Below are positions 40,901 through 61,623 of a stretch of 64,000 nt of DNA, piece after piece (the stretch's first letter is position 1; each line of letters starts with the position of its first letter). The position numbers were made by a program, and so were the translations under genes. The DNA is from Brucella haematophila. GTDB lineage: Bacteria; Pseudomonadota; Alphaproteobacteria; Rhizobiales; Rhizobiaceae. Location of the stretch: positions 434,001 through 498,000 of the forward strand of contig NZ_VCPE01000002.1 in NCBI RefSeq assembly GCF_005938105.1, in the 5' to 3' direction. Below the pieces are notes generated by a model, which saw nothing but the letters and a program-made list of their open reading frames with translations, did no database searches and was not told where the DNA came from.

Positions 40901-40911
40901 TTGACCCATGG

Positions 40912-43608: not shown

Positions 43609-43684
43609 GCCAGGGATATTTCGGCTCTGGAACCTGCAAATGGCGTTGTTCTGCGCTTCCGGTGCTCATGTGTCATTTTTCGAC

Positions 43685-43727: not shown

Positions 43728-43876
43728 TCGGAAGTACACTCCGCTCCGGTTCTCGAACCCCACCATTTTCGGCACGCCATAGCCAAAATCTCATCGACCC
43801 TATGAAAACGGCACGCCACACTCGCGCCAAACTGGCGCGATAACCTGACGATATGATGAAAAGAGAAAGTATACCG

Positions 43877-44545: not shown

Positions 44546-44658
44546 CGGCCTTCACAAAAAGGTCAGCAATTGTCACCTTACTGCGGCAAGCTGTTTGCAT
44601 TTGCAGGATAAATGGTTAGGTTCGCGGCATCTTTTTCGTTGCTGCGAGTCCCACCCCC

Positions 44659-45465
44659 ATGGCTTTTTCCGTTGCTACCTGGAACATCAACTCTGTGCGC
44701 CTGCGCATGCCGCTGGTCGAGCAGTTTCTGCGCGACTATCAGCCCGATGTTCTGTGTCTTCAGGAAACCAAGTGCCCGGACGATCAGTTTCCGTCCAAGG
44801 GTTTTCGCGCGCTCGGTTACGAGCATATCGCGATCAGCGGCCAGAAGGGCTATCACGGCGTTGCAACCATCTCGCGCCGTCCACTGTCCGGCGTTGAGAA
44901 AATCGGCTTTTGCGATATGGGTGATTGCCGCCATTTGAGCGCGGTGGTCGAGGCGGGGAACAAGAAGCTCCGCATTCATAACTTTTACGTGCCTGCGGGC
45001 GGTGATGAGCCGGACCCGGCAATCAATCCGAAATTTGCCCACAAGCTCGGATTCCTTGAGGAAATGCGGGCCATTGTGGCAGATCGTCAGGATGGACTGT
45101 CGTCGATCCTGGTGGGCGATCTTAACATCGCACCGTTGGAAAACGACGTCTGGTCGCACAAACAGCTTTTGAAGATCGTCAGCCACACGCCGATCGAGAC
45201 CGAGACGCTGGAAGATTTGCGCGTCAAGGGTGGCTGGAGCGACCTCATGCGCCAGATCATTCCGTCTGACCAGAAAATCTACACCTGGTGGAGCTATCGC
45301 GCCAAGGATTGGGATGAATCAGATCGTGGCCGCAGGCTCGACCATGTCTGGGGTTCTGCCGATCTGGAGGCCCATATGAAGGGTCTGCAAATTCTGCGCG
45401 ATGCGCGTGGCTGGGAACGTCCGTCGGACCATGTTCCGGTTATTGCGACGTTCGATCTGGATTGA
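44659..45465 (+). CDS. xthA: Exodeoxyribonuclease III
   Basis: A 268-residue exonuclease III-family AP endonuclease. It opens MAFSVATWNINSVRLRMPLVEQFL and contains VLCLQETKCPD (metal-binding glutamate), the GDLNIAP motif, DHVWGS and WERPSDHVPV (catalytic Asp-His). It repairs abasic sites and 3' blocking groups in DNA. No signal peptide; cytoplasmic. It lies downstream of lolA with a 113-base gap. It could also be annotated xth. Confidence 0.95.
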   Translation: MAFSVATWNINSVRLRMPLVEQFLRDYQPDVLCLQETKCPDDQFPSKGFRALGYEHIAISGQKGYHGVATISRRPLSGVEKIGFCDMGDCRHLSAVVEAGNKKLRIHNFYVPAGGDEPDPAINPKFAHKLGFLEEMRAIVADRQDGLSSILVGDLNIAPLENDVWSHKQLLKIVSHTPIETETLEDLRVKGGWSDLMRQIIPSDQKIYTWWSYRAKDWDESDRGRRLDHVWGSADLEAHMKGLQILRDARGWERPSDHVPVIATFDLD

Positions 45466-45574
45466 TCCGGTAACAGTCGCTATATAGACGGCAGTCTAAG
45501 TAAGGAGAAAAGAACGATGGATCAGACAGCACTGTATCGACCGACCAGTGTTTTCAATGTTTCCATGGTTCGCA

Positions 45575-47161
45575 ATGACTGCTCTTCTGACACTGCAGGA
45601 TGTTTCCTGCATCACGGCTGATGGCCGTACACTTTTCGAATCCGTTAATTTCAGCGTAGCCGAAGGCCGTATCGGGTTTGTCGGACGCAACGGCGTGGGT
45701 AAATCCACGATTCTCAACATCATGAGCGGTGCCTTGGCGCCAACATCAGGCACTGTTGCGCGCAGTGGCAGGCTCGGTGTTTTGCAACAGAACGTTCCCA
45801 ATAACGGTGGGCAGACCCTGGCTGATCTGTTTGATCTGTCAGTTGCATTCGCCATGCTTTCGCGTATTGAAGCCGGGCAGGGTTCGGATAGCGACTTCGA
45901 ACAAGCCGACTGGCTTCTGCCGCAGCGCTTTATCGACGCCTTGCAGCGTTTTGGACTGGCGTTTGAACCGCAGAGACGCCTTGCGTCGCTCAGCGGTGGG
46001 CAGAGGACTCGTGCGGCATTGGCCGCCCTGATATTCCATCAGCCCGATCTCATTCTGCTGGATGAACCGACCAACAATCTCGATCGTGATGGCCGAGAGG
46101 CGGTGATGGACATGCTGGCGGATTGGCGCGGGGCGGCAATTGTCGTCAGTCATGATCGCGCTTTGTTGCGCCAGATGGACAGCATTGCCGAGCTTTCGCG
46201 AGGCGGCCTTCATCTTTATGGCGGCAACTGGGACTTCTATCACGACAGAAAGCAGGAAGAGCGGGACAATGCGGCCCGTAATCTGCAGCTTGCCCAGCGC
46301 GAAATGAAACAGGTTCAACGTAAGGCGCAGGAAGCAGTGGAACGTCAGACGCGCAGAGATGCGCGTGGGGCCAAATCACGAGCCGATGCCGGTATGAGCA
46401 AACTGCTGCTCGATGCGCGCGAGGATCGAGCGCAGAAGACCGGCGGCAAGGGACAAGTGCTTGCGGATCGCAATGCGGAGAAGGCGCAGGCCCAACTGAA
46501 AGAGGCCGAGGCACTGGTCGAAACGATCAAGCCTATGCATTTCAGCGTCGAGGGCGCGGCTCTGCCATCTGGTCGTGTTCTTCTTGAAATGGAAGGCGTA
46601 TCGGGTGGGCCGCTATCAGACCAGCCGGTCATCCGGGATTTTTCGATGAAGATTGTCGGACCAGAGCGCATCGCGATATGTGGTGCCAATGGTGCGGGTA
46701 AGACATCGCTGCTGCGGCTTGTTACGGGAGAATTGCTGCCGATTGCCGGGCGTGTGCAATGTTTCGTGCCCATCGCCATGTTCGACCAGCAGATGAATCT
46801 GATGGATCGCGAAGCCACACTTTATGAGAACTTCCGCCGTCTCAACCCGGATGCGAATGACAATGATGCGCGCGCGGCGCTGGCGCGTTTCTCATTTCGT
46901 GGTGAAGGCGCGAGCCGGTTAGCAGGAGAGCTGAGCGGTGGCGAATTGCTGCGCGCGGCGCTTGCTTGCGTTTTGGGGGGTACACAGAAGCCGGAATTGC
47001 TGATTCTGGATGAGCCAACCAATCACCTCGATCTCGATTCCATTGAGGCGCTGGAAGCTGCGTTGAACGACTATGAAGGCGGCTTACTTGTTGTCAGCCA
47101 CGATCAGGCGTTTCTCGACGCCGTCGGAATGGAACGGGTGATTGATCTATCTGTCCAGTGA
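45575..47161 (+). CDS. ABC-F family ATPase
   Basis: A 528-residue soluble tandem ABC protein without membrane domains. The first Walker A is GRNGVGKST (residues 37-45), with LSGGQRTRAALAALI and LILLDEPTNNLD; the second has GANGAGKTS, LSGGELLRAALACVL and LLILDEPTNHLD. Between them is a long charged helical linker (about residues 230-320), as in ABC-F translation factors. Members act on ribosomes (EttA, Uup) or give antibiotic protection. Which class this belongs to cannot be decided. The start at 45575 gives MTALLTLQ. It is the last backbone gene before the accessory island. Confidence 0.9.
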   Translation: MTALLTLQDVSCITADGRTLFESVNFSVAEGRIGFVGRNGVGKSTILNIMSGALAPTSGTVARSGRLGVLQQNVPNNGGQTLADLFDLSVAFAMLSRIEAGQGSDSDFEQADWLLPQRFIDALQRFGLAFEPQRRLASLSGGQRTRAALAALIFHQPDLILLDEPTNNLDRDGREAVMDMLADWRGAAIVVSHDRALLRQMDSIAELSRGGLHLYGGNWDFYHDRKQEERDNAARNLQLAQREMKQVQRKAQEAVERQTRRDARGAKSRADAGMSKLLLDAREDRAQKTGGKGQVLADRNAEKAQAQLKEAEALVETIKPMHFSVEGAALPSGRVLLEMEGVSGGPLSDQPVIRDFSMKIVGPERIAICGANGAGKTSLLRLVTGELLPIAGRVQCFVPIAMFDQQMNLMDREATLYENFRRLNPDANDNDARAALARFSFRGEGASRLAGELSGGELLRAALACVLGGTQKPELLILDEPTNHLDLDSIEALEAALNDYEGGLLVVSHDQAFLDAVGMERVIDLSVQ

Positions 47162-47299
47162 ACTTTCAAATCGGCGTGCATGATTTGCAGGCTGGTGGCC
47201 CTGTTCAATTCGACAGCAGATATTCTTGCAAAATTTGGGGGGAATTTTGAAGTTGTCCTTCGGGCCAAACCGCCGAAAGACCAAGGGGATAGAATAAGA

Positions 47300-48007
47300 T
47301 TAGAGAAGACCGAAAGTGCGGGCCTTAGCGACGGCCTGAACTTTATTTACGGCAACAAGCTTGGTTAGCACGTTGCTGATATGGAAGTTGACTGTGCGGG
47401 TTGAAATATTGAGTATCGCGCCGATGATTTCTGAGGTCTTGCCCTCACTCGCCCAGTGCAGGATTTCCCTTTCACGCGCGGTGAGATTGACTTCCGAAAC
47501 GCAGTTCATGGTCGGGACATCAAGATGTTCATACATCGACAGATGGAGCAGATTGGCCGAAATCTGCATCTGGCGGCGTAAGGTGGCTATTTCGCCCGAA
47601 GATAGGGGCGGCTCACTTCTAATAAAAGACAGCATGCCGAATACGCCTTGTGCGGCCCAGCAAGGTTGCGAGATGCCAACCTTGAAGCCGAATTTCTGCG
47701 CGTCCTCCCAGATTTGCGGAGCATCCGCGAACAACTTTGCCGACCAAACCAGCGGCTCTATGCTATTCAATGCTTTACGAACAAGCGGATCTTCTTCCGC
47801 GTATTTCTTGGACGCATAGTGATCTGTCCATTCTTGCGGTAATGAACCGAAGCTGAGCCACTTTACCACGCCATTGAGCAGTGGAACGCGCATGATATAG
47901 GACACATGTGCGAACCCGCGCTGTTTGGCATAGCTATCTATGTGCTCCAGGAGCTGCCCAGCATCATCGGCGGATTGCATGGATTCATAAATTTGTTCCC
48001 ATTTCAT
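47300..48007 (-). CDS. LuxR-family quorum-sensing-type regulator (solo)
   Basis: A 235-residue LuxR-type protein with an N-terminal autoinducer-binding domain (about residues 15-155) and a C-terminal HTH (LTAREREILHWASEGKTSEII ... RTVNFHISNVL, about 168-233). Residues aligned with the TraR acyl-homoserine-lactone contacts are present and with the right spacing: W60, Y64, D73, P74 and W88, plus a glycine at 111. No luxI synthase is found in the window, so it is a solo. It lies at the edge of the low-GC island, convergent with the ABC-F gene, and a palindrome lies 62 bases upstream of its start. It may control the neighbouring surface-protein genes, which is inference. Confidence 0.9.
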   Translation of the reverse strand: MKWEQIYESMQSADDAGQLLEHIDSYAKQRGFAHVSYIMRVPLLNGVVKWLSFGSLPQEWTDHYASKKYAEEDPLVRKALNSIEPLVWSAKLFADAPQIWEDAQKFGFKVGISQPCWAAQGVFGMLSFIRSEPPLSSGEIATLRRQMQISANLLHLSMYEHLDVPTMNCVSEVNLTAREREILHWASEGKTSEIIGAILNISTRTVNFHISNVLTKLVAVNKVQAVAKARTFGLL

Positions 48008-48068
48008 TGCAGGTACCCAATAAGAATGTTTTGTTTATGCTCGCATGTGACATTTAGTAGGATATTGT

Positions 48069-48085
48069 GTTCAGTTTTACTGAAC
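48069..48085. promoter_or_regulatory. Palindrome upstream of the luxR-type gene
   Basis: GTTCAGT-TTT-ACTGAAC is a perfect 7-base inverted repeat around a TTT spacer, 62 bases upstream of the luxR start. It has the size and symmetry of a regulator-binding site and may serve autoregulation. Confidence 0.5.
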
Positions 48086-48493
48086 CAATTCCATCATATT
48101 ACTCTTATTTTTACAAGAATTTAATAGGTCTTATAACAATTTTAATTTATTTTTATATATATGAATTGAAAATAAAGCTAAATTAGAATAATATTTATTT
48201 GTATTGTCTAATAAATATATTATAATATTATTTAAATAATATTTCATTGACGAATGTTATTTGAAATATTCTGTTATATTATAGGTGTTTATATAAAATT
48301 ATCTTTGGATAGCGTATAAGTTTTATATATTGCGATAAAAATTAATTAATTACGCGTTGTTGCATGCTGGAGGTATATTTTATACTATAATATATATTAG
48401 AAGGATAATTCTGAGTCTCATTCTCTTTTCTCTGAAATATAGAAAATTTCACCATAAGATTGCTTCTTCTGGTGAAAATAGAAATATTAATCC

Positions 48494-48518
48494 GTGCCGC
48501 CACAAGCAATGGCGGCAC
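48494..48518 (-). terminator. Hairpin after the 924-residue Ig-like gene
   Basis: GTGCCGCCA / TGGCGGCAC form a perfect 9-bp stem with a 7-base loop 26 bases after the stop, on the minus strand. Only a weak T-rich tail follows. Confidence 0.6.
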
Positions 48519-48543
48519 AAAGGCTGTCGAATGATCGTTGGAT

Positions 48544-51318
48544 TTAAGCAGTAGTATCAAGTTCGATGTGATCGAGTATATTCGACCAAGTGTCACCGAT
48601 ATAATATTCGGCCTCCAAAGTCCCATGATCGTAACCCATGAATTGCTCATGGGTGAAGTGAATGGGGATATCGTTCTTTGAGTCGTAATCGACCTTCGCG
48701 ATTACCCCTTGACCAACATACGTGCCACCGAAACTGCCATCGTGATTGTTCATATACAGTATCAGATTGATGGTTTTACCAATGGCTCCACTCCACCAAT
48801 CCGCATAGGGGATAAGGACGTTGATTCCGTGGCCAATGCCATTGACGGTAATAATAGTGGCGTTGCCGTCAAACTTGGGCGCGGGTAGTACTCGACCGGG
48901 TTTGTTGTAGTCAGGATGGTTTTGTAATGTCGGACCAGACACGTCAGGGGAAAGTGTTCTACACATGTTAGTAACGCTGGATTGCGCATATACAGTCATA
49001 TAGGCCAGCTTGTTGCGATTCGCGGAACCGTCTGACGGATCTGGAGTCAGGTAGGTATAAGGGATAATTACACCATCACTAGCTTCTGACAGTAGTGCGA
49101 TTCTTATATGTTCCTGTGGTGCTTTGTTTGGTGGATAGCTTGCAACCCAGAACACGATCCTATCCTCTGGCGGCAAGAAGTTCGCTTCCGGAACTGATAG
49201 GCTGAAACCCGGATTGTCGATCGAGTAGTGGTCTGGGATAGTGATGGGGTTTGGGTCAGAACGGATAGGCTTAATGTTCTCGCTAATATCTCCGGTGTCG
49301 AATGTTGCTATGACAAACTGTGCTTCATGAGCCCCGATAAAGGGGTCATCCTCGGGTCCGACCGAGGCTATGCCCATAAATCGGAATTTGCTTCCAATCT
49401 TGAGAACACTGCGCCCATCGGGACCGGTTGTCGTAAAAACTTGTCCCTGCTTATTGACTGAGAGAGATTGGTACTGATCGTTGAAGTGGCCTAGACCGTA
49501 CACATTTGGCGTGACGTTCCAGATTATTGTTTTGTCAGCTTGGGGTTTTCCATTACGAATGTAGAGATAGGTTAGGGTCACAATCTGACTATCATCCCGC
49601 GGATCGATCTCATTGTCTGACGGGGGGTTATGGGCATAGTTCTTATCGAACAACAAAGAGACGTTTGGCGTATTCTGTTCGGCGATGAATGTCAGCGGGA
49701 CGATCGTGGGAACGCAATTGCTCGCTTCCGAGATGGATAGAGACGTGACGAGTGGCGAGAATGAACTAACCCAAATCGTTGCGATACCGTATCTATCGGT
49801 TACAGGATAAAAATCACTCACGGTAATCAGGTTATTCGGGGCGACAATGAGCTTGCGACCGACTAGAGGATTCCCATTGTAGTCCTTGAGGGACATTTTT
49901 AGGGCAGTCGTTGCTCTGGTCGGTAATGGGTCGTTTACGGTAGGCGAAACCTGGGTTACGACGTTCGCGGTTACCTTATAGACGGCGTTATAGGGTGCTC
50001 CGATTGATGGAGTGATGGTAACACTAAAGTTTTGCACGGTCCCTTGCGGAATGTCGACAAAGTTAACTGCACTTATCGCTAAGCCATTTTCATTCAGATT
50101 AGTTAGTGTTGGCAGAAAATATGCCGTACCGTCTCCTTTAATCGAGCCTTCCCAGGCAACAGAGAAGCCTTTTGGTGCATTACCGTTCTCATCATGTATG
50201 ATCACGTTGAACTGGCAGCTTTTCGCGGCTTCATAGATCGTGTCATCTGGCTGCGGACTGATAGAAGCAAAACGAGGCCCCCCCAGTTTAAAGACCGGGT
50301 AGTCTTGTTTGTACATTGGGTCGTCTTCCTCTCCGACGCTGCCCCCAGTCACATCCAGCCTAACTTCGTCACCCTGCCCATATGCAACGTATTTACAAAT
50401 GATTGTCGTCGTTGCTATGCCATCGTCATTGGTCAAACTGCTGGCCGGGGAAAGCTGTGCAATGTTATCCGCGAATGCAGCATTCGAAGCGGCCCAAGAG
50501 ATTTTCCAATCGCGGTACACGTCACCGTGTCCCCTAACGGTGAAAAATGCCTTTAATGGGTAGGCAAACCCGGGCTGCAGCACCGAACCATTAGGCGGCC
50601 AGAAATTTGCAACATAGGTTGCACCGTAACTTCCGGGTTTCAGGAAGCATGTTGATTGAAATTCTGCGAACCCGTTGGAGTAATTATGAATGTCAAGTTC
50701 ACAGTCATCGCGGTGGGTTGGTAATGTTACCAACGTTAAAAGACTATCTGTGGTTTGCACATTTATTTGATTGTCATTAGTCGGCGGTTTAGAAGTGAAA
50801 GTATTCACCACAGTCTTTCCAGAAAGAGGGTTTCCTGTTCCGTCGACACATAGAACGCGCAAATTTAAATCCCCTCCATAAAGCTCGGTGTAAATCGGCC
50901 AAAGCCCATTTGGGTCGTTCTGGGGGTAAATTGTCTGTAAAATGTTGTCTTTACTGATCGGCGGCGCAGCCTTTGGTGCACCGAACAGGCAGGTGAACTC
51001 GAGTCTTGAATCAGCTTCATCTTCTGGCCAGACAGCCAGACGAACCGACGCATTTGCGTTGGGATCTTCAAGATTTACCTGGATGCAATTAACGCCGTCA
51101 CCTTTGCTATCAACGGACGTCGTCTCATGGCGCAGCGTGGCTTCGCCTTCGACAAGCTGCCAAATGAGCTTTTTCCCGACCATTGGCTGGTGAAAGCTAT
51201 CCTTGTATGCAATGGCAAGATCGACGAATTCATTCACCGGAAATGCAAAACCGGAAGTCGGTGTGCTGGCCATGTAGTGCAGATTATTATTGTTTTGAGT
51301 GAGAATGAACTGTCTCAT
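48544..51318 (-). CDS. Large beta-rich, Ig-like repeat protein without signal peptide
   Basis: A 924-residue protein of unknown function. The start at 51318 is set by AGGAGAG seven bases upstream; there is no signal peptide or membrane helix. The sequence looks like about seven or eight Ig-like beta-sandwich domains of ~95-130 residues, recognisable by recurring D-x-x-G-N-P-x-x-G-K-x-x-x-W patterns: HQPMVGKKLIWQL, GNPLSGKTVV, GNAPKGFSVAWEG, GNPLVGRKLIV and GKPQADKTIIWNV. This resembles bacterial Ig (Big_1-type) domains of adhesins. The last ~90 residues (VLIPYADWWSGAIGKTINLIL onward) resemble modules in the 398-aa neighbour. Codon use and GC are lower than in the backbone. A role outside the cell is plausible, but the export route is unclear. 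Confidence 0.82.
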   Translation of the reverse strand: MRQFILTQNNNNLHYMASTPTSGFAFPVNEFVDLAIAYKDSFHQPMVGKKLIWQLVEGEATLRHETTSVDSKGDGVNCIQVNLEDPNANASVRLAVWPEDEADSRLEFTCLFGAPKAAPPISKDNILQTIYPQNDPNGLWPIYTELYGGDLNLRVLCVDGTGNPLSGKTVVNTFTSKPPTNDNQINVQTTDSLLTLVTLPTHRDDCELDIHNYSNGFAEFQSTCFLKPGSYGATYVANFWPPNGSVLQPGFAYPLKAFFTVRGHGDVYRDWKISWAASNAAFADNIAQLSPASSLTNDDGIATTTIICKYVAYGQGDEVRLDVTGGSVGEEDDPMYKQDYPVFKLGGPRFASISPQPDDTIYEAAKSCQFNVIIHDENGNAPKGFSVAWEGSIKGDGTAYFLPTLTNLNENGLAISAVNFVDIPQGTVQNFSVTITPSIGAPYNAVYKVTANVVTQVSPTVNDPLPTRATTALKMSLKDYNGNPLVGRKLIVAPNNLITVSDFYPVTDRYGIATIWVSSFSPLVTSLSISEASNCVPTIVPLTFIAEQNTPNVSLLFDKNYAHNPPSDNEIDPRDDSQIVTLTYLYIRNGKPQADKTIIWNVTPNVYGLGHFNDQYQSLSVNKQGQVFTTTGPDGRSVLKIGSKFRFMGIASVGPEDDPFIGAHEAQFVIATFDTGDISENIKPIRSDPNPITIPDHYSIDNPGFSLSVPEANFLPPEDRIVFWVASYPPNKAPQEHIRIALLSEASDGVIIPYTYLTPDPSDGSANRNKLAYMTVYAQSSVTNMCRTLSPDVSGPTLQNHPDYNKPGRVLPAPKFDGNATIITVNGIGHGINVLIPYADWWSGAIGKTINLILYMNNHDGSFGGTYVGQGVIAKVDYDSKNDIPIHFTHEQFMGYDHGTLEAEYYIGDTWSNILDHIELDTTA

Positions 51319-51712
51319 CCTGCTCTCCTGATTTTTAAACAAACGGGAAAACTTGCCAGCTCCACCCGAACTGGCAATTCAATTGGTTGTCGAGCGTTCT
51401 ATGGCTTTTGCCGAAGGTGCCTTTGTTTTCATTCATGGCAACGAATGGCACACTGATCTTTGTCGACCGGAGCTAAGATCAAGAGCAGGTAGGCGATCCA
51501 ATTCAACCCGATTGGATTTTGCTTTCCAGCACACGAAGTGAGTTTGAGATGCGCCCCTTTTTGGACGCAATGCTCATCAGATGTGTCTGTAGGATTATGA
51601 TAGCTCGCTCGTTGTGGGGGCAGAAAATCCGCCTGATCGGAGAACCTCTTTACGTATGCATGTTCCTATCCGTGCAGGCAGCTTCGGGCAGGATAAATGA
51701 TCGCTCTGAAGG
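51319..51712. other. Non-coding gap between the two Ig-like genes
   Basis: 394 bases without a supported gene. It contains an inverted repeat (51353-51377) close to the start of the 924-residue gene, and the end of the 398-residue gene's transcript. A separate promoter for the 924-residue gene is likely. Confidence 0.55.
51353..51377. promoter_or_regulatory. Inverted repeat upstream of the 924-residue gene
   Basis: TTGCCAG-N11-CTGGCAA is a perfect 7-base inverted repeat 35 bases before the start codon. It could be an operator or a 5'-leader hairpin. Confidence 0.4.
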
Positions 51713-52909
51713 TTATTCGCTATCGTCTGGGGCTGGGCCGACAGTGTTGAGAGATCCGTGATCCCAGTTTTGAGGCTTGGCAACGAAATTACCAGCGGCG
51801 TCCAACAAATTATAGTCGATGTAGAAAACACCGGCCTCGTAGCCCTGGTCTTCACCGCTGATACCATAATCTGCGAGATCTTTCGCTTGTATGGTCATCT
51901 TATACTTCTGTGCAACGGTGTTCGCTGGAATTTTTGGACTAACTATGCTTAAACGGTTTTGATGTTTCGCGTCGGTGCCCTGGTAGTAACCGTCCAGGGT
52001 AACGAGCAATTGGATCGCGCAGTTTGCCTCAAATGGGCCACTCGGTATGATCGGCAGATCGATATACACATCCGTATCTCTGGCTGGCGCATTGATATAA
52101 TGCACATTATTAAACAGAGAAGGATCAGAGCCGATAATGGTGCGATGCGGTGACTGCCCCGGCTTGTCGGTACTGGAGTTGACTACACCCAAGGTGAGCG
52201 GAAGTGCCGTTTCGCCGTTAATTGCGTTAAAGAGCATATAGGTGAAGGTGTTTTCTACGGCGTGATCATCATCCTGGCCCGCCTTCAGATATGTGGTAGG
52301 AACCTGAAAGCCTTCATCCAAGACGTTGTGGACTGTGTCAATCACACAACGTGAGGGGACGCCGGTTCTGCTGATCACCAGGGCAGCTGTTGCACCCGGT
52401 ACCGGATCATAGCTTTCATTAACCGACAGAGGCAGGTGGAAGGTAATAGTGTCTCGGTCCAGGGACACCGGAATGTTGTTCTTATCATCCAGGAAGGTCG
52501 TAAGCGGACCATAGATATCGTCCGCTTTGGCAGGGTCTACCCAGGCAACGAATTTGGGTAGGTTGGCTGGTTGGGTGCTCTGGTCAGTACCAATGTAGAT
52601 ACTGGGAGTTACGATGGCTTGTGCGTCCGACCAGATGTAGAATGTCAGCGTGCCCTGGGGGTTCGTTTTCACTTTATAGCCGAGTTTCTGGCTGCCCGGC
52701 ACAGCAGCTCCCTGAGCGTCCAGAACTTGAACCAGATCCGTATCAACGCGCACCGTGATGTCAACTGACGGAACTACTGCGCCGGTTGCGCTGCCGTCGC
52801 GGGTCTGTAGGTTGAATTTGATGACCCCCGATGTGTTATCCATGGGCTTGGTCGAGTCTGCCGGCGTCGCTAAAATATTCACGGCGTCGAGTTTGATTAT
52901 AGTAGCCAT
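51713..52909 (-). CDS. Ig-like/beta-rich protein without signal peptide, 398 aa
   Basis: A 398-residue protein of unknown function. The start MATIIKLDAVNIL at 52909 is preceded by AAGG. There is no signal peptide. The N-terminal ~125 residues look like a beta-sandwich domain (SVDITVRVD ... PGSQKLGYKVKTNPQGTLTFYIW). Two further modules (about residues 156-232 and 278-372) share the layout LP-x-G-x-x-x-x-L-V-I ... V/F-x-I-P ... Y with each other and with the C-terminus of the 924-residue protein. Both genes point the same way, 394 bases apart. The function is unknown; a structural or extracellular protein is the best guess. Confidence 0.82.
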   Translation of the reverse strand: MATIIKLDAVNILATPADSTKPMDNTSGVIKFNLQTRDGSATGAVVPSVDITVRVDTDLVQVLDAQGAAVPGSQKLGYKVKTNPQGTLTFYIWSDAQAIVTPSIYIGTDQSTQPANLPKFVAWVDPAKADDIYGPLTTFLDDKNNIPVSLDRDTITFHLPLSVNESYDPVPGATAALVISRTGVPSRCVIDTVHNVLDEGFQVPTTYLKAGQDDDHAVENTFTYMLFNAINGETALPLTLGVVNSSTDKPGQSPHRTIIGSDPSLFNNVHYINAPARDTDVYIDLPIIPSGPFEANCAIQLLVTLDGYYQGTDAKHQNRLSIVSPKIPANTVAQKYKMTIQAKDLADYGISGEDQGYEAGVFYIDYNLLDAAGNFVAKPQNWDHGSLNTVGPAPDDSE

Positions 52910-53347
52910 TGAATTTACCTTATGTTTGACAATGCGCAACAACAATGGATTTTTATGCGCCCCTCAACAACTGTCGGGACGGGCATGAAACTTGTTGATA
53001 CTGCCAGTTGCGCGTGTATTAGGCCCATCCATGGATGTTGCTGATGGTGCGTTTGCGTAGCAGTTTTTGATTTCCAGAACGCGTACCGTTCGGCATCACA
53101 CGATGCTTCAATCATCTTTTGGCAGCCTGTTGGTCAATCGCCAAAAGGGTATTTTAAAATATACTCTAATTATTTCTGAATATATAAACAAATAAATGCT
53201 AATTTAAATATCATAAATATGTAAATTATTCGCTGACCGAAATCAATACGTGTAATTCTACCAAATAAAGAATGGTGTTTTCTTATTACTTTAATTGATA
53301 TAAAGGAAGAGGGGATTATCCATCAATTTATAATTAGAGATTGCTAA
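52910..53347. other. Divergent AT-rich promoter region of the island
   Basis: 438 bases between the 398-residue gene and the autotransporter. The right half (53140-53340) is very AT-rich and includes the palindrome TATTTTAAAATA (53150-53161). AAGGAAGAGGGG at about 53303 is a possible distant ribosome-binding site. No gene is supported. Confidence 0.55.
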
Positions 53348-56300
53348 ATGATACTACTTCTGCGCACTCGGCGTTCAACGGGCGTGACTTTCAGTGCTAT
53401 ATTTCACCGAAAGAAACGGAACCTTCGTGCTGGCGTCGCACTGCCTGTCTCTCTTTTTTGGGGAGCATTGTTTGCGCTGCCGACCGTGCCTGCCTTTGCG
53501 CAAACAGTGGGGGGTGATGGCGGCACTCTCTATAACTATCCGGATACGATTGGCCAAGGCGGTGGACCAGGAGAGGATGGGGTGCCGGGGCACGTTCCCG
53601 CAGTTCAGAGTTTCCCGGGGCTTGGCGGTGGTGGTGGTGGTGCCGGAGGTGGAAAAGGGGCGGTTGGTGTCGTTGGAGATCCCCAAGGCGTTACTAGCGC
53701 GATCGGCGGTAACGGCGGAGATGGTGGCGATCATGGTTATGTTGTCAGTACGGTGATCCCGGGCGGTTATACCAATACTCAGTCGTGGAGTGGAACGTCT
53801 GGCACACGAGGACAGGACGGGACGGATTCGCAGGTTGTCGGGAAGTCGGCTGGCGGTGGTGGTGGTGGTGGCGCTGGCGGTTATGGCCTGGTAATCAGTA
53901 AGGGGCAGCCCGTCACCAATCAGGCAGCGCTTAACGGCGGTGATGGCGGTGATGGCGGTGATGGCGGGGTGGATACAAACCCAACCGCCACATCATACGT
54001 CTTTTCAGGAGCTGCCGGCAGTGGCGGCGGCGGCGGCATCGGGCTTTGGATGGATGACGATAATGTGTCCGTAATCAATGCGAGCACGATTACTGGCGGA
54101 GCTGGGGGAAAGGGCGGAGACACCAAGGCTCATAGTTATGCCGTTGGCACAACCGGCAATGGCGGCGCCGGGGGGGCTGGCATCTATGGCGCCGAGGATG
54201 ATGGGTCGGGCAATGATGTCGCGCGGCCTGGCTCAACGGTTGTGAATCAGGCGGCCGGCGTCATCACTGGCGGAAAAGGTGGTGCTGGCGGGAATACGGA
54301 TACAGCACAGCTTGTGTCAGGACTTTGGCTCGCCGATATTATAGGAGCCAACGGGGGTGCGGGTGGTGCTGGGATTTATGGTGTCTTCAGTGTGGATAAT
54401 CAGGGCGGTGTCATCACGGGTGGTGACGGCGCTAACGGCGGTGTGGGCAGCCAAGACACAGGTGTCCAAAATGGTCAAACACGTGAGGCAGCAGGTGGAG
54501 ATGGCGGCGCAGGTGTTTTCCTGGTTCTCCATGATGACGGGTCTGTGGCGACGGTCGACAACGCCGGCGCGATCACTGGCGGCAATGGAGGAAATGGAGG
54601 TGATGCCAAAACGACCGGAGCAATTGCCAAAGATCAGAGTGTTGGAGGGCATGGCGGCGCTGGCATTCAGGGGGATACAGGCGGTACTATTACCAATACT
54701 GGTAGTATCCACGGCGGCAACGGTGGCAATGGTGGCCATACGGCCGCGACAGGCGAGAATGACGGCGATGGCGGTGCTGCCGGTGATGGTATTTCGGGCA
54801 CCAATCTGACGGTCATCAATAGCGGCATGATTGCGCCGGGCATCGCGGGCAGCGCTGGCAGCGGTCAGAAAGGGGTCGGTGGTTATGCGATCCGTATGGA
54901 AGGCGGTCAGAGCACTCTGGAGCTTCATGCAGGTTCGGACATTCAGGGGAATGTTTTCGCCGACGAATTGGTAGATGCAGATACCGGAACCAGCACAGAC
55001 AGCAATATTTTCATTCTCGGTGGAGCGACGTCCAGTAAATTCGACAAAACGCTTTCCATGGGCAGAGACGGCACTGCTCAATATGAAGGCTTCTCAACCT
55101 TCATAAAAAATGGCGCGAGTACGTGGACGCTTGAAAACACCTATAATTTAAACTGGCAGATTCGCGGCGGTGTGCTGGAAATCGATGACCAGGGTGCTTT
55201 GGGCAGCGGCGTCACCATTGATACCGGTGATGGCGCCAGTAAAGGGTTCTTATCCTATAACCAGAACGGGACTACGCCGACAACATTCGGTGGCACGATT
55301 ATCGGTGACGGCGGTCTTCGCAAGGAAGGCACTGGCGAACTTGTGCTGACGGGCAACAATTCCTACAGCGGCGGCACCGAATTGAACGGGGGTGTGATTT
55401 CGGTGGATGACGACACTCGCCTCGGGAATCAGACCGGTGTTTTGAACTTCAACGGCGGAACACTGAAGATAATGGGCACGTCGATGACATCGACGGATCA
55501 CGCCATTACCTGGGGCAATAACGGTGGTGGTTTCGACATTGATAGTGTCGACAACACTTTTACCATTACAACTGATCTCGCCGGAAGTGGCTCACTGATC
55601 AAAGACGGCGCTGGAACGCTCGCTATGACGGGCCTGGATAGCTACGCCGGTATCGTGGCGATCAAGGGTGGCGTGTTGCAGATCGGCGATGGCCAGACGA
55701 GCGGAACATTGGGCACGGGGGCTTCTGTTGCGATTACCAGCGGTACATTGGCCTTCAATAGAAGTGACGATGTCCTTGTAATTAGCCAGGTGATTAGCGG
55801 CAATGGCGGTCTTGTGCAGGCGGGCGCCGGAACGACGACCCTAGTGGGCGACAACTCTTACCTCGGTGACACTGACATCCAGGCAGGGACTCTTCAGCTG
55901 GGTCAAAACGGAACGACGGGCGCACTGGATCCCAGAAGCACCATCCATATCTCAGCCAACGCAAAATTGGTCATCAGTCGCAGTGACATCGCCAGCCCCT
56001 TTAGTTTCGACAACTTGATCAACGGTGATGGCCAGGTCGTGATTAACGGGGATGGTCGAGTTACACTCACCAACACGGGTAGCAGCTACACTGGCGGCAC
56101 AAAGCTCGATGATGGTACACTTATCATCGGTTCCGACATGGTTCTCGGTTCTGGTGATCTGACATTGAACGGCGGCACGTTGCGGGTGGAATCTCCATTT
56201 ACAATGAACCGTGCCATCAATGTTCTGGCCCCGAACGGCAGGGTCAACATGCTCGATACAGCTCAGAACTTGACGTTCTCCGGAACCTTGACGGGGAGTA

Positions 56301-59300
56301 ATGCCTCAAGCTTTACCAAAATAGGCGCTGGTGATCTATGGTTCGATCAAGCGGCAACTGCGACGGGCTTTACAGGTACTGCCAACGTCGATGAAGGCGC
56401 TATGCGGGTTAGCAGCACGTTCGGCGGCAAGGTCAATGTCAACAGCGGCGGCGTGCTTGGCGGTACTGGTACGGTTGGCGACACGCATATTTCCGCTGGT
56501 GGAACGTTGGCCGGACTTTACGGCACGACGCTAAAGATCGAGGGGGGGCTGACGGTCGACAGAGATAGCGCCGTTCAAGTCAATATCGGCACATTGCCGT
56601 TCTCTACGGGTATGTTCAACGTTACCGGAAATCTTACACTCAAGGGAAAACTTGACGTTACCACTAGTGGAGTCGCAGCTCCTGGAATATATCGCATTTT
56701 TGACTATGATTCCAGTAAAACGAACGACTATGCCGATTTCACATTGGGTACGGTAGATGACGTTGCCGTTAGTTCCGATGACTGGAATATTGAGAAGACG
56801 AATCCTGGCCAGATCAACCTCGTCAATATGCAGGGAATGACGTTTGTTATTTGGGATGGCCAAAATATGGTTGATAGCAATCAAGTCCATGGCGGCGACG
56901 GAACCTGGAATGCTGCGGACACAAATTGGAAAGATTATGGGAGTCAATCGATCAATGGCAAATGGACGGATGGTTCCGTTGCTGTTTTCACGACAACCCC
57001 GGGAACCGTAAACATTGATAATCATGCGGCCGGTGTAAATGCATCGGGCTTGGTGTTTGAGACAAATGGCTACAAGATCACCGGTGATCCCATCACACTC
57101 GTTCAGGGCGAGAATGCAACAGCACCGTTTATACAGGTCGGGGTGAACAATAGGGCGGATGATATACCGACGGCCACAATAGGCACGGTTTTGCACGGAG
57201 CAAACGGTCTAACGAAGACCGGTAACGGCACTTTGATTTTGACAAAAAATGCCGATTATTCCGGTTCTACGATTGTATCAGCGGGCACGCTCCAATTGGG
57301 AGATGGCGGTACTTTGGGGGCGGTTAGTACGAATATAGAGCTGAAGGATGATGTCTTCGGTCATGGTACTTTGGTGTTCGACCGCTCGGACAACAGCAAT
57401 GTCTTCAATCATCAGATTACTGGCGGCGGTGATGTTATCCAGCGCGGTACGGGGATAACTATTCTCTCTGGAAACAATAGTTTTACTGGCGGTCTGACCA
57501 TCGAGCACGGTATCGTCCAGGCTGGCATTGCAGATACCGCATTCAGCGCGGGTCGCGTGAGGATTGAGAAAGATGGCACGCTTGATCTTCAGACATTCAA
57601 TGAAACCATCGGCGGTTTGGTTGGGAGCGACGATGGCAATGGCAAAATCGCACTTGGCGGCGGAACTCTGACGCTCAATCAGGACTTCAGCGACAGATTT
57701 TCCGGTGACATTTCGGGAACCGGCGGTCTTTGGAAAAATGGGACGGGTACTCTGACGCTTTCGGGCCAGAACGAGTATTCGGGTCTTACAACTGTCAATG
57801 TTGGCTCTCTCGTACAAGGCGCTCAGGGGGCTTTCAGTGATGCATCCGCTTACACTGTTGTTAACGGCGCGACGCTCGATCTGGGCGGCTTTGAAACCAA
57901 GATGCAGTCATTGAAGAATGGCGGCACAGTCAATTTCGGCGGCGCTGGCGGTATCCATCTGAATATCGCTGGAGACTATGCCGGTAACGGCGGCACGCTC
58001 GTGATGAACACCGAGTTGGGCGACGATAACTCCAATACGGACAGGATGAGCGTCGCTGGCAATACATCAGGGAACACGACCGTAGTGGTTAAAAACCGTG
58101 GCGGTCTCGGTGCTCAGACGGTGAATGGTATCGAACTGATCGATGTTAGCGGTAGCTCTGATGGTACATTCAATCTTCAAGGGGATTACACCACCAAGGA
58201 TGGTCAGCAAGCCATTCTGACATCGTCGGCCTATGCCTATACCCTACAAAAGGGGAGTGCGAGCGGTTCGAATGACGGTGATTGGTATTTGGTTAGCCAA
58301 AATACGCGAAGCACTCCTGATGGTCCGTCGCCGGATTGTGACGATCCGAATGGTTGCTCTAACAATCCAGACACGCCTTCACGGTTCAGCCCGGCAGCTC
58401 CGGTTTACACGTCCTATGCTGCTAGCATGCAGGCACTGAACCAGTTGCCGACATTGCAGCAGCGCCGCGGCGACCGTTACTTCGCCAAGAAGACATCGGC
58501 TCTCCGCGGTTCTTCGTCCGACGCTGGCGAGACGGATGATCGCGCCATTTGGGCACGTATCGAAGGTGCGCATAATCGTTTGGAACCGAACACGACTGCC
58601 GGGCGTGTTCAGCAGGATGTCAACACTGTCATCATGCAGGCAGGTGTCGATGGACAGTTCTACGAGGATGAGAATGGTCGATTGATTGCAGGCATTACCG
58701 GCCAATACGGAAATGGCCGCGCCAAAACGTCCAGCGAATTCGATGACTCCCTTGGCGGCGGTCAGTTGAACACGCAGGGCTGGGGTCTGGGTGGAACGAT
58801 CACCTGGTATGGCAATGACGGCTTTTATGTCGATGGACAGGCTCAGGCCACCTGGTACAAGACCGATCTCAGCTTTGGTGGTGGCAACAAAGGGCTGTCG
58901 AATGACAATAACGGCTTCGGCTATGCGCTCAGCATGGAAAGCGGAAAGCGTTTCGATCTCGATGAGCATTGGTCGCTGACGCCGCAGGCACAACTGATGT
59001 TCTCGTCAGTCGATTTCGATACGTTCTCGGATAGCTATGGTGCCACTGTCAGCAACCGTGATGGCAACAGCCTCAACGGTCGTCTTGGTCTTGCCGCCAA
59101 CTATGCCGATAGCTGGCAAGGAGCGGATGGTCGCGCAGTGAACGCCAATGTCTATGGCATCGCCAACCTCTATCAGGAGTTCCTCGGCGGTACGAGCATC
59201 AACTATGGCGGAACTCGGATGAAGGCTGATCAGGATCGCACTTGGGCGGGCGTCGGTTTCGGTGGCACCTATGCGTGGTCGGACGATAAGTATTCGATCT

Positions 59301-59389
59301 ACGGTGAGGGCACGCTCAACACTTCGCTCACGCACTTTGCAGATAGCTATGCCGTCAAAGGCAATGTGGGCTTCCGGGTGAACTGGTAA
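53348..59389 (+). CDS. Giant autotransporter with glycine-rich and beta-strand-repeat passenger
   Basis: A 2013-residue type V secretion protein. An extended signal peptide (cleavage likely after AFA, residue 51) is followed by a glycine-rich region (about residues 52-510) with recurring ITGGxGGxGG motifs, then a beta-helix passenger with at least seven autotransporter-associated beta-strand repeats (GG-L-x-K-x-G-x-G-x-L-x-L-x-G-x-N-x-Y-x-G type, near residues 654, 746, 820, 895, 1285, 1361 and 1458). A proline-rich linker precedes the C-terminal barrel (from RAIWARIEG at residue 1732), ending in FRVNW with a terminal aromatic residue. It should be a surface adhesin or biofilm protein. No protease site or sortase motif is seen. 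Its left neighbour is divergent. Confidence 0.93.
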   Translation: MILLLRTRRSTGVTFSAIFHRKKRNLRAGVALPVSLFWGALFALPTVPAFAQTVGGDGGTLYNYPDTIGQGGGPGEDGVPGHVPAVQSFPGLGGGGGGAGGGKGAVGVVGDPQGVTSAIGGNGGDGGDHGYVVSTVIPGGYTNTQSWSGTSGTRGQDGTDSQVVGKSAGGGGGGGAGGYGLVISKGQPVTNQAALNGGDGGDGGDGGVDTNPTATSYVFSGAAGSGGGGGIGLWMDDDNVSVINASTITGGAGGKGGDTKAHSYAVGTTGNGGAGGAGIYGAEDDGSGNDVARPGSTVVNQAAGVITGGKGGAGGNTDTAQLVSGLWLADIIGANGGAGGAGIYGVFSVDNQGGVITGGDGANGGVGSQDTGVQNGQTREAAGGDGGAGVFLVLHDDGSVATVDNAGAITGGNGGNGGDAKTTGAIAKDQSVGGHGGAGIQGDTGGTITNTGSIHGGNGGNGGHTAATGENDGDGGAAGDGISGTNLTVINSGMIAPGIAGSAGSGQKGVGGYAIRMEGGQSTLELHAGSDIQGNVFADELVDADTGTSTDSNIFILGGATSSKFDKTLSMGRDGTAQYEGFSTFIKNGASTWTLENTYNLNWQIRGGVLEIDDQGALGSGVTIDTGDGASKGFLSYNQNGTTPTTFGGTIIGDGGLRKEGTGELVLTGNNSYSGGTELNGGVISVDDDTRLGNQTGVLNFNGGTLKIMGTSMTSTDHAITWGNNGGGFDIDSVDNTFTITTDLAGSGSLIKDGAGTLAMTGLDSYAGIVAIKGGVLQIGDGQTSGTLGTGASVAITSGTLAFNRSDDVLVISQVISGNGGLVQAGAGTTTLVGDNSYLGDTDIQAGTLQLGQNGTTGALDPRSTIHISANAKLVISRSDIASPFSFDNLINGDGQVVINGDGRVTLTNTGSSYTGGTKLDDGTLIIGSDMVLGSGDLTLNGGTLRVESPFTMNRAINVLAPNGRVNMLDTAQNLTFSGTLTGSNASSFTKIGAGDLWFDQAATATGFTGTANVDEGAMRVSSTFGGKVNVNSGGVLGGTGTVGDTHISAGGTLAGLYGTTLKIEGGLTVDRDSAVQVNIGTLPFSTGMFNVTGNLTLKGKLDVTTSGVAAPGIYRIFDYDSSKTNDYADFTLGTVDDVAVSSDDWNIEKTNPGQINLVNMQGMTFVIWDGQNMVDSNQVHGGDGTWNAADTNWKDYGSQSINGKWTDGSVAVFTTTPGTVNIDNHAAGVNASGLVFETNGYKITGDPITLVQGENATAPFIQVGVNNRADDIPTATIGTVLHGANGLTKTGNGTLILTKNADYSGSTIVSAGTLQLGDGGTLGAVSTNIELKDDVFGHGTLVFDRSDNSNVFNHQITGGGDVIQRGTGITILSGNNSFTGGLTIEHGIVQAGIADTAFSAGRVRIEKDGTLDLQTFNETIGGLVGSDDGNGKIALGGGTLTLNQDFSDRFSGDISGTGGLWKNGTGTLTLSGQNEYSGLTTVNVGSLVQGAQGAFSDASAYTVVNGATLDLGGFETKMQSLKNGGTVNFGGAGGIHLNIAGDYAGNGGTLVMNTELGDDNSNTDRMSVAGNTSGNTTVVVKNRGGLGAQTVNGIELIDVSGSSDGTFNLQGDYTTKDGQQAILTSSAYAYTLQKGSASGSNDGDWYLVSQNTRSTPDGPSPDCDDPNGCSNNPDTPSRFSPAAPVYTSYAASMQALNQLPTLQQRRGDRYFAKKTSALRGSSSDAGETDDRAIWARIEGAHNRLEPNTTAGRVQQDVNTVIMQAGVDGQFYEDENGRLIAGITGQYGNGRAKTSSEFDDSLGGGQLNTQGWGLGGTITWYGNDGFYVDGQAQATWYKTDLSFGGGNKGLSNDNNGFGYALSMESGKRFDLDEHWSLTPQAQLMFSSVDFDTFSDSYGATVSNRDGNSLNGRLGLAANYADSWQGADGRAVNANVYGIANLYQEFLGGTSINYGGTRMKADQDRTWAGVGFGGTYAWSDDKYSIYGEGTLNTSLTHFADSYAVKGNVGFRVNW

Positions 59390-59727
59390 AATCGCTGCGG
59401 ATCTGGGAAGGGCCCGTTATCGGGTTCTTCCCACCGCAGTAGTTTGATACTGATATGAGTAGTGATCTCTGTTTTTGGGCATCATGTGAGTGCCAACTGG
59501 ATGGGCACGGCGGATGCTGTCAAATATCAGCGGTCTGTAGAGCTTGAGACAAACTTTACTCAAGAGCATTCCCGGCAAAAATCGGGAGTGCCTCGGCAGA
59601 GAAAATAGCCGATGGTCTGATGTAGTCCGTCGACGATCGAGCGAACGGACTGGAAGCGAACAAAAATCGCCGATCTGATCCCATCAGGTCGGCGATTTCC
59701 TTTCTTGGGTAAAATTTCCGGTAGAAA
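59390..59727. other. Non-coding right border of the island
   Basis: 338 bases without a gene. It has a weak hairpin just after the autotransporter (about 59404-59432), a repeat-like GAGCATTCCCGGCAAAAATCGGGAGTGC (59566-59593), and the terminator of the opposite operon at 59663-59698. No tRNA or integrase marks the border. Confidence 0.55.
59663..59698 (-). terminator. Terminator of the CNB-cenR operon
   Basis: On the minus strand AAATCGCCGA...TCGGCGATTT form a long stem with one mismatch and a GGG loop, followed by TTTTG. Lies 30 bases after the stop of the cyclic-nucleotide-binding gene. Confidence 0.8.
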
Positions 59728-60189
59728 TCAGTCGCCATTGCCGAGACGAGGCGCGACCTTCTCAATCTCACCGATCAGGTCCAGCAAGTTACGGCTGATA
59801 TGTCCATGCAGGGAGGCTGCCACTTCGGGATATTCTTCCAGAATGCGCCGGAAGATCGAGCGGCTGATGCGGATCACTTCGGTTTCCGCTTCGGCGACTG
59901 CGCCGGTAAGGCGTGATGTCTGGGCGATGAGAGCCATCTCACCAAGCATCGCACCGGGGCCGACAGGGCGGATCGATATCCGCCCCTCATCAGCATCGTG
60001 AAACAGGGTAATGTTGCCGGAAACGACGATATAGGCGCAGTCAGCGCTCTGGCCTTCACGGAAAAGCTCGCGGCCCGCGCGTAGCACAAGCCGCTCGGCG
60101 CCGAAGGCAAGAAGGCGCAACTGTTCGGGTGTGAATGACTCGAACAGGCCCACCGTGCCGAGAATGCGAATATCGTCGTCTAGCGCCAT
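59728..60189 (-). CDS. Cyclic nucleotide-binding domain protein
   Basis: A 153-residue protein consisting of a single cNMP-binding domain without a DNA-binding HTH. The phosphate-binding cassette is GAMLGEMALIAQTSRLTGAV, with the conserved GE and R that contact the cyclic phosphate and ribose. A helical C-terminal tail (RNLLDLIGEIEKVAPRLG) follows. It resembles the protein annotated in Brucella as a cAMP-dependent kinase regulatory subunit-like protein, encoded with the OtpR response regulator; here the genes are 34 bases apart in the same order. It likely modulates the response regulator pathway; the mechanism is unknown. Confidence 0.88.
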   Translation of the reverse strand: MALDDDIRILGTVGLFESFTPEQLRLLAFGAERLVLRAGRELFREGQSADCAYIVVSGNITLFHDADEGRISIRPVGPGAMLGEMALIAQTSRLTGAVAEAETEVIRISRSIFRRILEEYPEVAASLHGHISRNLLDLIGEIEKVAPRLGNGD

Positions 60190-60223
60190 AGATTGTCAAT
60201 ACACCTGCATCGGGCGCTGTCCA

Positions 60224-60907
60224 TCACGGGACAAGCTTGTATCCCCCGCTTTCTGTGACGAGAAGCGTGGCATTGGACGGGTCTTTCTCGATTTTCTGGC
60301 GCAGGCGATAGACGTGGGTTTCGAGCGTATGGGTGGTCACGCCCGAATTATAGCCCCAGACCTCTTCCAGCAGCACATCGCGACCGATGACCTTGTCGCC
60401 AGCGCGATAAAGATACTTGATGATCGCCGCTTCCTTTTCGGTCAGGCGAATCTTTGCACCCTTCTCGTCGATGAGCAGTTTCTGCCCCGGCTTGAACGTG
60501 TAGGCGCCGACCGTGAAGGTCGCGTCTTCGCTTTGCTCATGCTGGCGTAACTGCGCGCGGATACGCGCAAGCAGAACGGCAAATTTGAACGGCTTGGTGA
60601 CATAGTCATTCGCGCCGGATTCAAGACCGAGAATCGTGTCCGATTCAGTGTCATGTCCGGTCAACATAATGATCGGGGACTTGAAGCCGCCTTTGCGCAG
60701 AAGCTTGACAGCCTCGCGGCCATCCATATCCGGCAGACCCACATCCATGATCAGAAGATCGACGATGCCGTTGCGCGCAGTCTGAATGCCCTTGGTGGCA
60801 TTGTCTTCTTGCAGGATCTGGAATTCTTCACACAGCTCAAGCTGCTCGACGAGGATGGAGCGGAGATCTTCGTCGTCATCCACAATCAGAATTGTACGGC
60901 CTGTCAT
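60224..60907 (-). CDS. cenR: OmpR-family response regulator (CenR/OtpR type)
   Basis: A 227-residue response regulator with an N-terminal receiver domain (phosphorylatable D55 in LLIMDVGLPDMDG; acidic pocket IVDDDED; YVTKPFKFAVL with the conserved lysine) and a C-terminal winged-helix DNA-binding domain (RLTEKEAAIIKYLYRAG ... THTLETHVYRLRQKIE). The sequence and the neighbouring cyclic-nucleotide-binding gene match the Brucella OtpR/CenR pair, linked with envelope and stress responses. Both gene names refer to the same group; cenR is used by homology. No sensor kinase is adjacent. It is divergent from the L,D-transpeptidase gene, a possible target. Confidence 0.88.
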   Translation of the reverse strand: MTGRTILIVDDDEDLRSILVEQLELCEEFQILQEDNATKGIQTARNGIVDLLIMDVGLPDMDGREAVKLLRKGGFKSPIIMLTGHDTESDTILGLESGANDYVTKPFKFAVLLARIRAQLRQHEQSEDATFTVGAYTFKPGQKLLIDEKGAKIRLTEKEAAIIKYLYRAGDKVIGRDVLLEEVWGYNSGVTTHTLETHVYRLRQKIEKDPSNATLLVTESGGYKLVP

Positions 60908-61067
60908 GCCTGTCCTCGTTACTCTTTGATTTAAATATGGCTCTTCGTGTTTTATGACACTTAATGGCCAGAAGTTGAAGCGGCGAAACGCGAATCATGT
61001 TTTCACCAGCTTCAGGGGGCGGATTGTAAACATGTTTTGCCCGAAAACTAAAAATGGAGACGGGGGC

Positions 61068-61613
61068 GTGACCAGATATCAAGGAAGCCGTGGGGTCGGC
61101 ATCATCAATGTGCGGGCCAAGCCGGGCCACAAGACTCGCGGACTGCTTACTGCTGGCAATCTGGTGCTGGAATGCGCGCTTGGCAAGGGGGGCATCAGCG
61201 CTTTCAAGCGCGAGGGCGACGGCGCAACGCCTTTGACCGCCATGCGTCTGCTGTACGGATATCGCCGTGGCGATAAGGGATCTCTACCGACAACGCAGCT
61301 GCCGTTGCGCAGAATCCGCCGTCTGGACGGCTGGTGTGACGCGCCGGGCGACCGCAATTATAACCGGCCGGTGCCGCTGCCTTACAAGGCCAGTCACGAA
61401 GATATGTGGCGCAAGGACGATCTCTACGATGTCTGTATCGTGATGGACTGGAATATCCTGCCGCGCCGCCGAGGCTGCGGCAGCGCCATTTTCTTTCACC
61501 TTGCATGGCCGGGCTATACGCCGACCGAGGGCTGCATCGCATTGAAGCGCGCCGACATGGCGCGTCTCTTGCCGCATCTATCAGACCGGACGGTTGTTCG
61601 CGTCCTGCGATAG
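61068..61613 (+). CDS. L,D-transpeptidase family (YkuD) protein
   Basis: A 181-residue YkuD-domain protein. The catalytic signature is H144 in FFHLAWPGY and C156 in TEGCIALKRADM. L,D-transpeptidases cross-link peptidoglycan 3-3 or attach proteins to it. I chose the GTG at 61068 because GGAGACGGGGG precedes it and the protein then begins VTRYQGSRGVGIINV; ATG at 61032 is an alternative. No signal peptide is visible from either, which is odd for a periplasmic enzyme. It is divergent from cenR, suggesting a shared regulatory region. Confidence 0.85.
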   Translation: MTRYQGSRGVGIINVRAKPGHKTRGLLTAGNLVLECALGKGGISAFKREGDGATPLTAMRLLYGYRRGDKGSLPTTQLPLRRIRRLDGWCDAPGDRNYNRPVPLPYKASHEDMWRKDDLYDVCIVMDWNILPRRRGCGSAIFFHLAWPGYTPTEGCIALKRADMARLLPHLSDRTVVRVLR

Positions 61614-61623
61614 TTTTGATTTG

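Follow-up and report, generated by a model that had tools for sequence, protein, structure and literature searches.

A candidate surface module of a type Va autotransporter and leaderless, polymorphic partner proteins in Brucella haematophila and related genomes

An insert between the ABC-F and CNB genes

The stretch analysed here, referred to as the window, comprises 64,000 nucleotides of Brucella haematophila (assembly GCF_005938105.1, contig NZ_VCPE01000002.1, positions 434,001 to 498,000). It contains a 12.6-kb insert with four genes, which encode a LuxR solo, a leaderless immunoglobulin-like (Ig) rod protein named here BigIg, a shorter leaderless protein named Small, and a giant autotransporter (Table 1). 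An earlier note on this DNA had described them as a candidate surface-protein island of lower guanine-cytosine (GC) content with AT-rich spacers, presumably controlled by a regulator responsive to acyl-homoserine lactones (AHL). All four genes were recovered where that note had placed them, and its account of the composition was confirmed by a GC content of 0.507 in the insert against 0.579 at positions 36000-47161 and 0.577 at 59728-64000. The lowest 500-bp windows form two troughs, one around the gap upstream of luxR and the other around the gap between Small and the autotransporter.

Table 1. Features of the insert, in window coordinates
Feature	Position	Strand	Basis or remark
Whole insert, flanked by the ABC-F and CNB genes	47162..59727	.	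GC contrast and comparison with empty sites
LuxR solo	47300..48007	-	Autoind_bind 8.2e-36, GerE 1.2e-18; tree; no LuxI match in genome
AT-rich gap upstream of luxR, 536 bp	48008..48543	.	Composition: GC 0.259, TA-step frequency 0.142
Perfect palindrome TTCAG-N5-CTGAA, candidate LuxR self-operator	48070..48084	.	Exact in 3/4 island genomes
Terminator-like stem after BigIg, between BigIg and luxR	48491..48521	-	Consensus scan; 16 such sites vs 13.0 expected in region
BigIg, leaderless Ig-rod protein, 924 aa from ATG	48544..51318	-	Big_1 3e-12; family alignments
Small, leaderless protein, 398 aa from ATG, kin of BigIg C-terminal third	51713..52909	-	Family alignments; hhalign
AT-rich divergent gap between Small and autotransporter, 438 bp	52910..53347	.	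Composition: GC 0.361
Giant type Va autotransporter: glycine-rich N-terminus, PATR repeats, AC_1, barrel	53348..59389	+	Pfam
Terminator-like stem between autotransporter and CNB	59664..59698	.	Consensus scan only

The BigIg open reading frame (ORF) spans 48544-51342 on the minus strand, where a ribosome-binding site and an ATG indicate the start given in Table 1; that of Small spans 51713-52945 on the same strand, with its ATG at 52909. The earlier note had announced two Ig-like proteins. This holds for BigIg, which gave one Pfam match, to Big_1, and not for Small, which has no Pfam match and is related to the C-terminal third of BigIg (hhalign probability 98, E 2.3e-13). Signal peptides were assessed by reading the N-termini and by a hydrophobicity scan only. 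The autotransporter, 2013 aa long, fits the domain definition of type Va autotransporters with PATR and AC_1 (PF12951, PF18883, PF03797), as it combines a passenger with a C-terminal PF03797 barrel (G000:C12:492547-493308, G000 being the genome of the window). Its first 70 residues include a hydrophobic stretch of 1.88 on a 12-aa scale, a possible signal sequence.

The near relative G223 has an empty site, and its likeness to the window ends near 47148 and restarts at 59728. The CNB site was fetched in 15 of the 31 island-free genomes, and the insert is absent from all of these. ABC-F adjoins CNB in 11 of the 15 (with a gap of at most ~140 bp, and in pieces in G200), three have no ABC-F beside CNB within the stretch fetched, and one, G207, carries a different 8.2-kb insert at the same site. 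The names ABC-F and CNB-cenR are those given to the flanking genes in the earlier note. No transposase was seen in the interval, as judged from the ORF list alone, the short ORFs there not having been scanned with a family library. The G207 insert (L042 1913-7006) has a GC content of 0.490 and a 1697-aa ORF that is 27% like an RHS protein of locus L034, described below.

Conserved ends, a polymorphic middle and recurrence elsewhere

In four of the 35 genus genomes, namely the window's own, G189, G202 and G219, this site carries the LuxR, BigIg, Small and autotransporter genes in one constant order; in G219 the autotransporter spans two contigs. Co-occurrence of the four genes across genomes, by which the earlier note had proposed to check its grouping, is thus found, and the surface or beta-protein content that it claimed is supported. 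Among the island genomes, LuxR is 96–97% identical to the window copy in amino acids and 87–90% in nucleotides. For BigIg the identity is 27–46% overall and 35–50% in the best segments, and for Small 24–32%. Along the autotransporter it drops from 87–95% in the barrel to 25–66% in the passenger, where both are present. Since the identities of LuxR and the barrel are high, whereas Small, BigIg and the passenger are 24–66% alike, the ends of the locus are conserved and its middle is polymorphic. Linkage of the genes in the four genomes may reflect common descent. A recent acquisition of the island by the window genome alone was considered and rejected, because its luxR is 9.5–13% apart in nucleotides from the other three island copies, exceeding the 5–8% found for two flanking genes, CNB and 43853-44545.

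Profile searches of the 35 genus genomes detected Small in nine and BigIg in seven, ten genomes in all. In samples of 397 genomes of the order and 398 of the phylum, the Small profile matched only the window's own genome, and a single-sequence search with BigIg matched two of 199 family genomes. A contig scan with the BigIg alignment, made via one short peptide pattern, returned 29 stretches, five of which encode relatives, all of Ochrobactrum. Within the genus, Small or BigIg genes stand at nine distinct places, some of them recognized by weak profile matches (G221, G189 C43, G205), and an autotransporter gene lies nearby at eight. At seven of these it is no more than 2 kb away: the ABC-F/CNB site; L027 (CGA5); L028 (O. 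chromiisoli), where the autotransporter is split and runs off the contig; L024 (G212), with a YadA head-stalk partner; L033 (G221); L034 (a second place in G189), with RHS among the partners; and L035 (G205), a low-quality genome with the autotransporter in pieces. At L032 (G208) the autotransporter is broken and ~5–6 kb distant, with a YadA-head gene and an AraC gene in between. The remaining place, L025, is in the window's own genome and holds an orphan BigIg paralogue. Finding seven or more of nine places with an autotransporter within 2 kb has p about 6.5e-10 under a null taken from the autotransporter density of the window's own genome only, a value to be read with the caveat that the nine places are not fully independent. 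A literature search found no report of this module in open-licence texts.

Among the eight autotransporter-bearing places, Small is present at seven and the autotransporter is divergent from the Small/partner operon at six. The partners vary in kind. YadA head-stalk proteins for which Pfam matched no anchor (L024 10285-11697, L032 11137-12858) stand in clusters with Small genes and an autotransporter, and L034 and L033 have leaderless operons of five and four genes, respectively, with Big_1 and RHS proteins. The orphan BigIg paralogue (L025 8729-10981) is 750 aa long with six Big_1 stretches.

In a tree of the 420-aa C-terminal ends, six module autotransporters from three places (the window site in four genomes, CGA5 and G221) form a 100/100 clade, separate from the 17 other autotransporters of the window's own genome that were entered, out of 21. 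The broken ends of L032 and L035 were in the first tree and were dropped from the second. Barrel identity to the window autotransporter follows the same lines, with 89–96% at the same site, 64–65% at the two other places of the clade, 54% at L034 and at most 54% for the other autotransporters of the own genome. None of the 20 stretches around those 21 autotransporters holds a member of the Small or BigIg families. Beside one of them lies a pair of genes that appear to lack leaders (L095 272-3637; 491 and 595 aa), the first with a partial match to the autotransporter profile.

Beyond the genus, tblastn with BigIg found no relatives in plasmids or phages, and one scan of viral contigs found none either; Small has none in plasmids, phages not having been searched for it. 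Two L034 proteins have relatives on Yersinia enterocolitica plasmids, and one of the two also on plasmids of Pantoea, Enterobacter and Salmonella bongori (in all 9 and 6 records of 72,556 for the two proteins). Three plasmid clusters were read. In the Enterobacter cluster (L101), a divergent inverse autotransporter lies ~1.1 kb from the first leaderless gene, and in the Pantoea cluster (L102) one lies ~6 kb downstream, with IAT_beta matches of 1.6e-98 and 8.6e-95, respectively. The Pantoea ananatis plasmid (L102 1958-20662) also has lysis genes of phage type (holin, amidase, lysozyme, Rz) around the leaderless Ig-like genes and the inverse autotransporter. The profile of a 446-aa family gave weak matches in seven of 398 phylum genomes (best E 1.6e-9), and the seven stretches fetched for it cover ten of 13 places. 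Two of these stretches, L120 and L124 from one genus, have a gene with Pertactin and Autotransporter domains 0.2–2.4 kb downstream; L122, taken at first for a distant relative, did not match the profile at the protein level. An autotransporter of some class thus stands within ~6 kb at four of the ten outside loci inspected (L101, L102, L120, L124).

The LuxR gene and its regulation

A close LuxR is encoded in all 35 genus genomes, and the window's own genome has a second luxR, 70% identical to the island copy (L053 8145-8861), at the usual site, which adjoins genes that we take to be cysD/cysN (as seen in G000, G202, G206, G215 and G223). The island copy sits at the ABC-F/CNB site instead. A LuxR tree was built with 29 rows drawn from 25 genomes (of the 35, the ten left out include G207, with a split gene, and G229, with stops). 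The island copies of the four genomes form one clade there, which joins, at 100/100, the luxR genes of nine other genomes with one copy only, and the resident copies of the same species stand apart. Among these nine genomes, the cysDN-linked site was checked in G215 only. Compared with G215, luxR is 79–80% identical in nucleotides and CNB 80–81%; as the 79% of the window's luxR is close to the 80.5% of its CNB, the island copy tracks vertical divergence. An origin of this copy as a plain duplicate of the resident one is ruled out by the tree and by these identities, and it is the resident copy that looks like the odd one. Its position in the tree does not follow the apparent order of the species, as though it had been replaced.

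The usual cysDN-linked site is probably that of babR. The window LuxR shares Autoind_bind and GerE with BabR/BlxR, the LuxR solo of Brucella, and is 66% identical to the gene that one member of the group, with a 3.3-Mb genome, has at the cysDN-linked site; it differs in being an extra copy within a surface-gene island, in a genome that keeps a second copy at the usual site. AHL-pocket residues appear conserved, as judged by eye on an RhlR-variant alignment. No PF00765 (LuxI) match was found in the own genome, other synthase types not having been searched; three of the 35 genus genomes have such matches. In G225, two LuxI-type synthases (C27:6574-7116; C39:76171-76704) scored above the cut-off.

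Three papers (PMC7277663, PMC11925318, PMC12713405) describe Brucella babR as self-regulated, with an AT-rich promoter that is bound by MucR; this promoter has T-A steps (PMC7277663, PMC11925318). The gap upstream of the island luxR is similarly AT-rich, its last ~130 bp before the gene being alike by eye in the four island genomes. The palindrome of Table 1 lies there, ~60 bp upstream of luxR, and no copy with at most one mismatch occurs in 20 other luxR loci including 500-bp flanks. One-mismatch palindromes are no commoner in the window than by chance (two found, 2.08 expected) and are not counted as proof. With two mismatches, the motif matches at 51295 in the first BigIg codons, and with one mismatch at the same spot in G219.

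These observations bear on the model of the earlier note, in which an AHL-responsive LuxR directly controls BigIg, Small and the autotransporter as one density-dependent surface island. The constant linkage and order in four of four island genomes speak for it, as do the strong purifying selection on a LuxR with an Autoind_bind domain, the lack of a LuxI match in the own genome and the near-palindrome at the BigIg 5' end. On the other hand, the linkage may reflect shared ancestry, no palindrome within two mismatches was found in the gap between Small and the autotransporter, and the terminator-like stem separates BigIg from luxR, which appears to have its own transcription unit. Moreover, no ORF near the module matches LuxR at L024, L025, L027, L028 or L032–L035. 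As these other places show no adjacent luxR, a LuxR intrinsic to the module, which the grouping in the earlier note implies, is not supported. Control of the module by LuxR is possible, with neither operators at the Small/autotransporter promoters nor linkage elsewhere to support it, and we consider the density-dependent model in its full form rather unlikely.

A proposed multi-protein surface module

Gene content, recurrence, the autotransporter subclade and a barrel that stays conserved while partners and passenger diverge rapidly lead us to favour another explanation, to which we give slightly less than an even chance (about 0.48): a recurring surface module in which an autotransporter serves as anchor or receptor, with leaderless Small and a variable partner docked outside as a polymorphic fibre. 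The core would be an autotransporter of type Va, in most cases from a single subfamily, beside an operon whose products show no evident signal peptide. The ~400-aa Small, as the near-constant member, may act as an adaptor, and the elongated variable partner, a BigIg rod here and a YadA head-stalk or RHS protein at other places, would be the exposed part. Small and BigIg would leave the cell by a Sec-independent route and dock on the passenger, which would be the outer-membrane anchor or receptor, yielding an extracellular or surface fibre that would serve attachment or contact between cells. In the island clade an extra LuxR has been kept beside the module under purifying selection; it may mainly control itself, and its control over the module is conjecture. 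As the module promoters are AT-rich, we propose that the module may be silenced by H-NS-like MucR.

Several observations weigh against this surface module. No export route was identified for Small or BigIg, and the nine cysteines of BigIg (up to 18 in its kin) would suit a cytoplasmic protein. The structure model of Small, from a four-row alignment, is poor (predicted local distance difference test score of 43), so there is no fold supporting docking. Small contains a stop in G219 and consists of two separate ORFs in G202, and the autotransporter is split or broken at three of eight places (L028, L032, L035). The L034 autotransporter falls just outside the module clade, those of L024 and L028 are absent from the tree, neither an autotransporter nor Small was seen near the L025 paralogue, and six of the ten outside loci inspected have no autotransporter nearby, although not every ORF was scanned.

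Among the remaining explanations, the site could be a recombination hot spot, where unrelated variable surface genes gather at ABC-F/CNB and elsewhere, the adjacency of the autotransporter being a by-product. The different, RHS-like insert of G207 at the same site agrees with this, as does the contrast between partners that are 24–50% alike and flanking genes of the island genomes that are about 90–95% alike in nucleotides. A gathering of unrelated genes is at odds with the single clade formed by the module autotransporters of three places, with the divergent layout at six of eight places and with the occurrence of relatives near inverse and pertactin-type autotransporters as well, and we regard it as unlikely. 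Lower still we place a cytoplasmic role, in which Small and BigIg would, for instance, assist or silence the giant autotransporter. The lack of an evident leader and the moderate cysteine content would suit it, but the Ig-rod architecture and rapid diversification look exposed, as do the YadA-head or RHS proteins found in the same position elsewhere. A slightly less probable extension of the docking idea is a general surface system of two parts, as yet undescribed, in which lysis of a few cells frees the leaderless Ig, YadA and RHS proteins, which sister cells would catch via a cognate type Va or Ve autotransporter to form a shared strain-specific coat, timed partly by the quorum receptor in the island clade; the lysis-type genes seen around the Pantoea relative fit this, and none were seen at the Ochrobactrum places. 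Finally, it is very improbable that BigIg is a giant adhesin like LapA or SiiE, exported by type I secretion and with incidental neighbours: its kin have no evident signal peptide and carry Big_1-type repeats in varying number over 750–2197 aa, but the RTX-like GGxGxD motif is absent from five of six kin scanned (and by eye from P0002) and occurs once in the sixth, no exporter was recognized among the neighbouring ORFs from the ORF list without a family scan, cysteines are present, and the pairing with Small and the autotransporter is close.

The proposed surface module shares elements with several known systems. Autotransporters are held to be self-sufficient, and to our knowledge the type V scheme as described includes no leaderless partners of this sort; unlike type Va autotransporters in general, most module autotransporters tested form a subclade beside leaderless Ig-type operons. 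The inverse autotransporters (type Ve, intimin/invasin) of enterobacterial plasmids have Big_1 repeats in common with BigIg, and those at L101 and L102 lie near leaderless Ig-type genes with distant kinship to the L034 operon. BigIg differs from them in that no IAT_beta barrel was found in it (only Big_1 at E up to 0.1), and the neighbouring anchor here is a type Va autotransporter. A further parallel is a Yersinia enterocolitica plasmid cluster of leaderless Ig-like proteins with RHS, annotated as Ig-like or hypothetical, which has relatives of all five leaderless genes of L034 (the second O. teleogrylli operon), RHS included; it differs in lying on an IS-rich conjugative plasmid with no autotransporter annotated within ~10 kb. 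Polymorphic operons of leaderless partners recur beside classical autotransporters, and distant kin stand close to pertactin-type and inverse autotransporters; this suggests a surface system of several proteins, possibly of an undescribed kind, whose members are annotated as hypothetical. Two questions thereby become testable: by what route leaderless Ig rods exit the cell, and whether autotransporters act as their receptors.

At the border of the island, the ABC-F gene (window 45548-47161) diverges more than its neighbours, with 87–90% amino acid identity in close kin and mostly 69–75% in other genomes.

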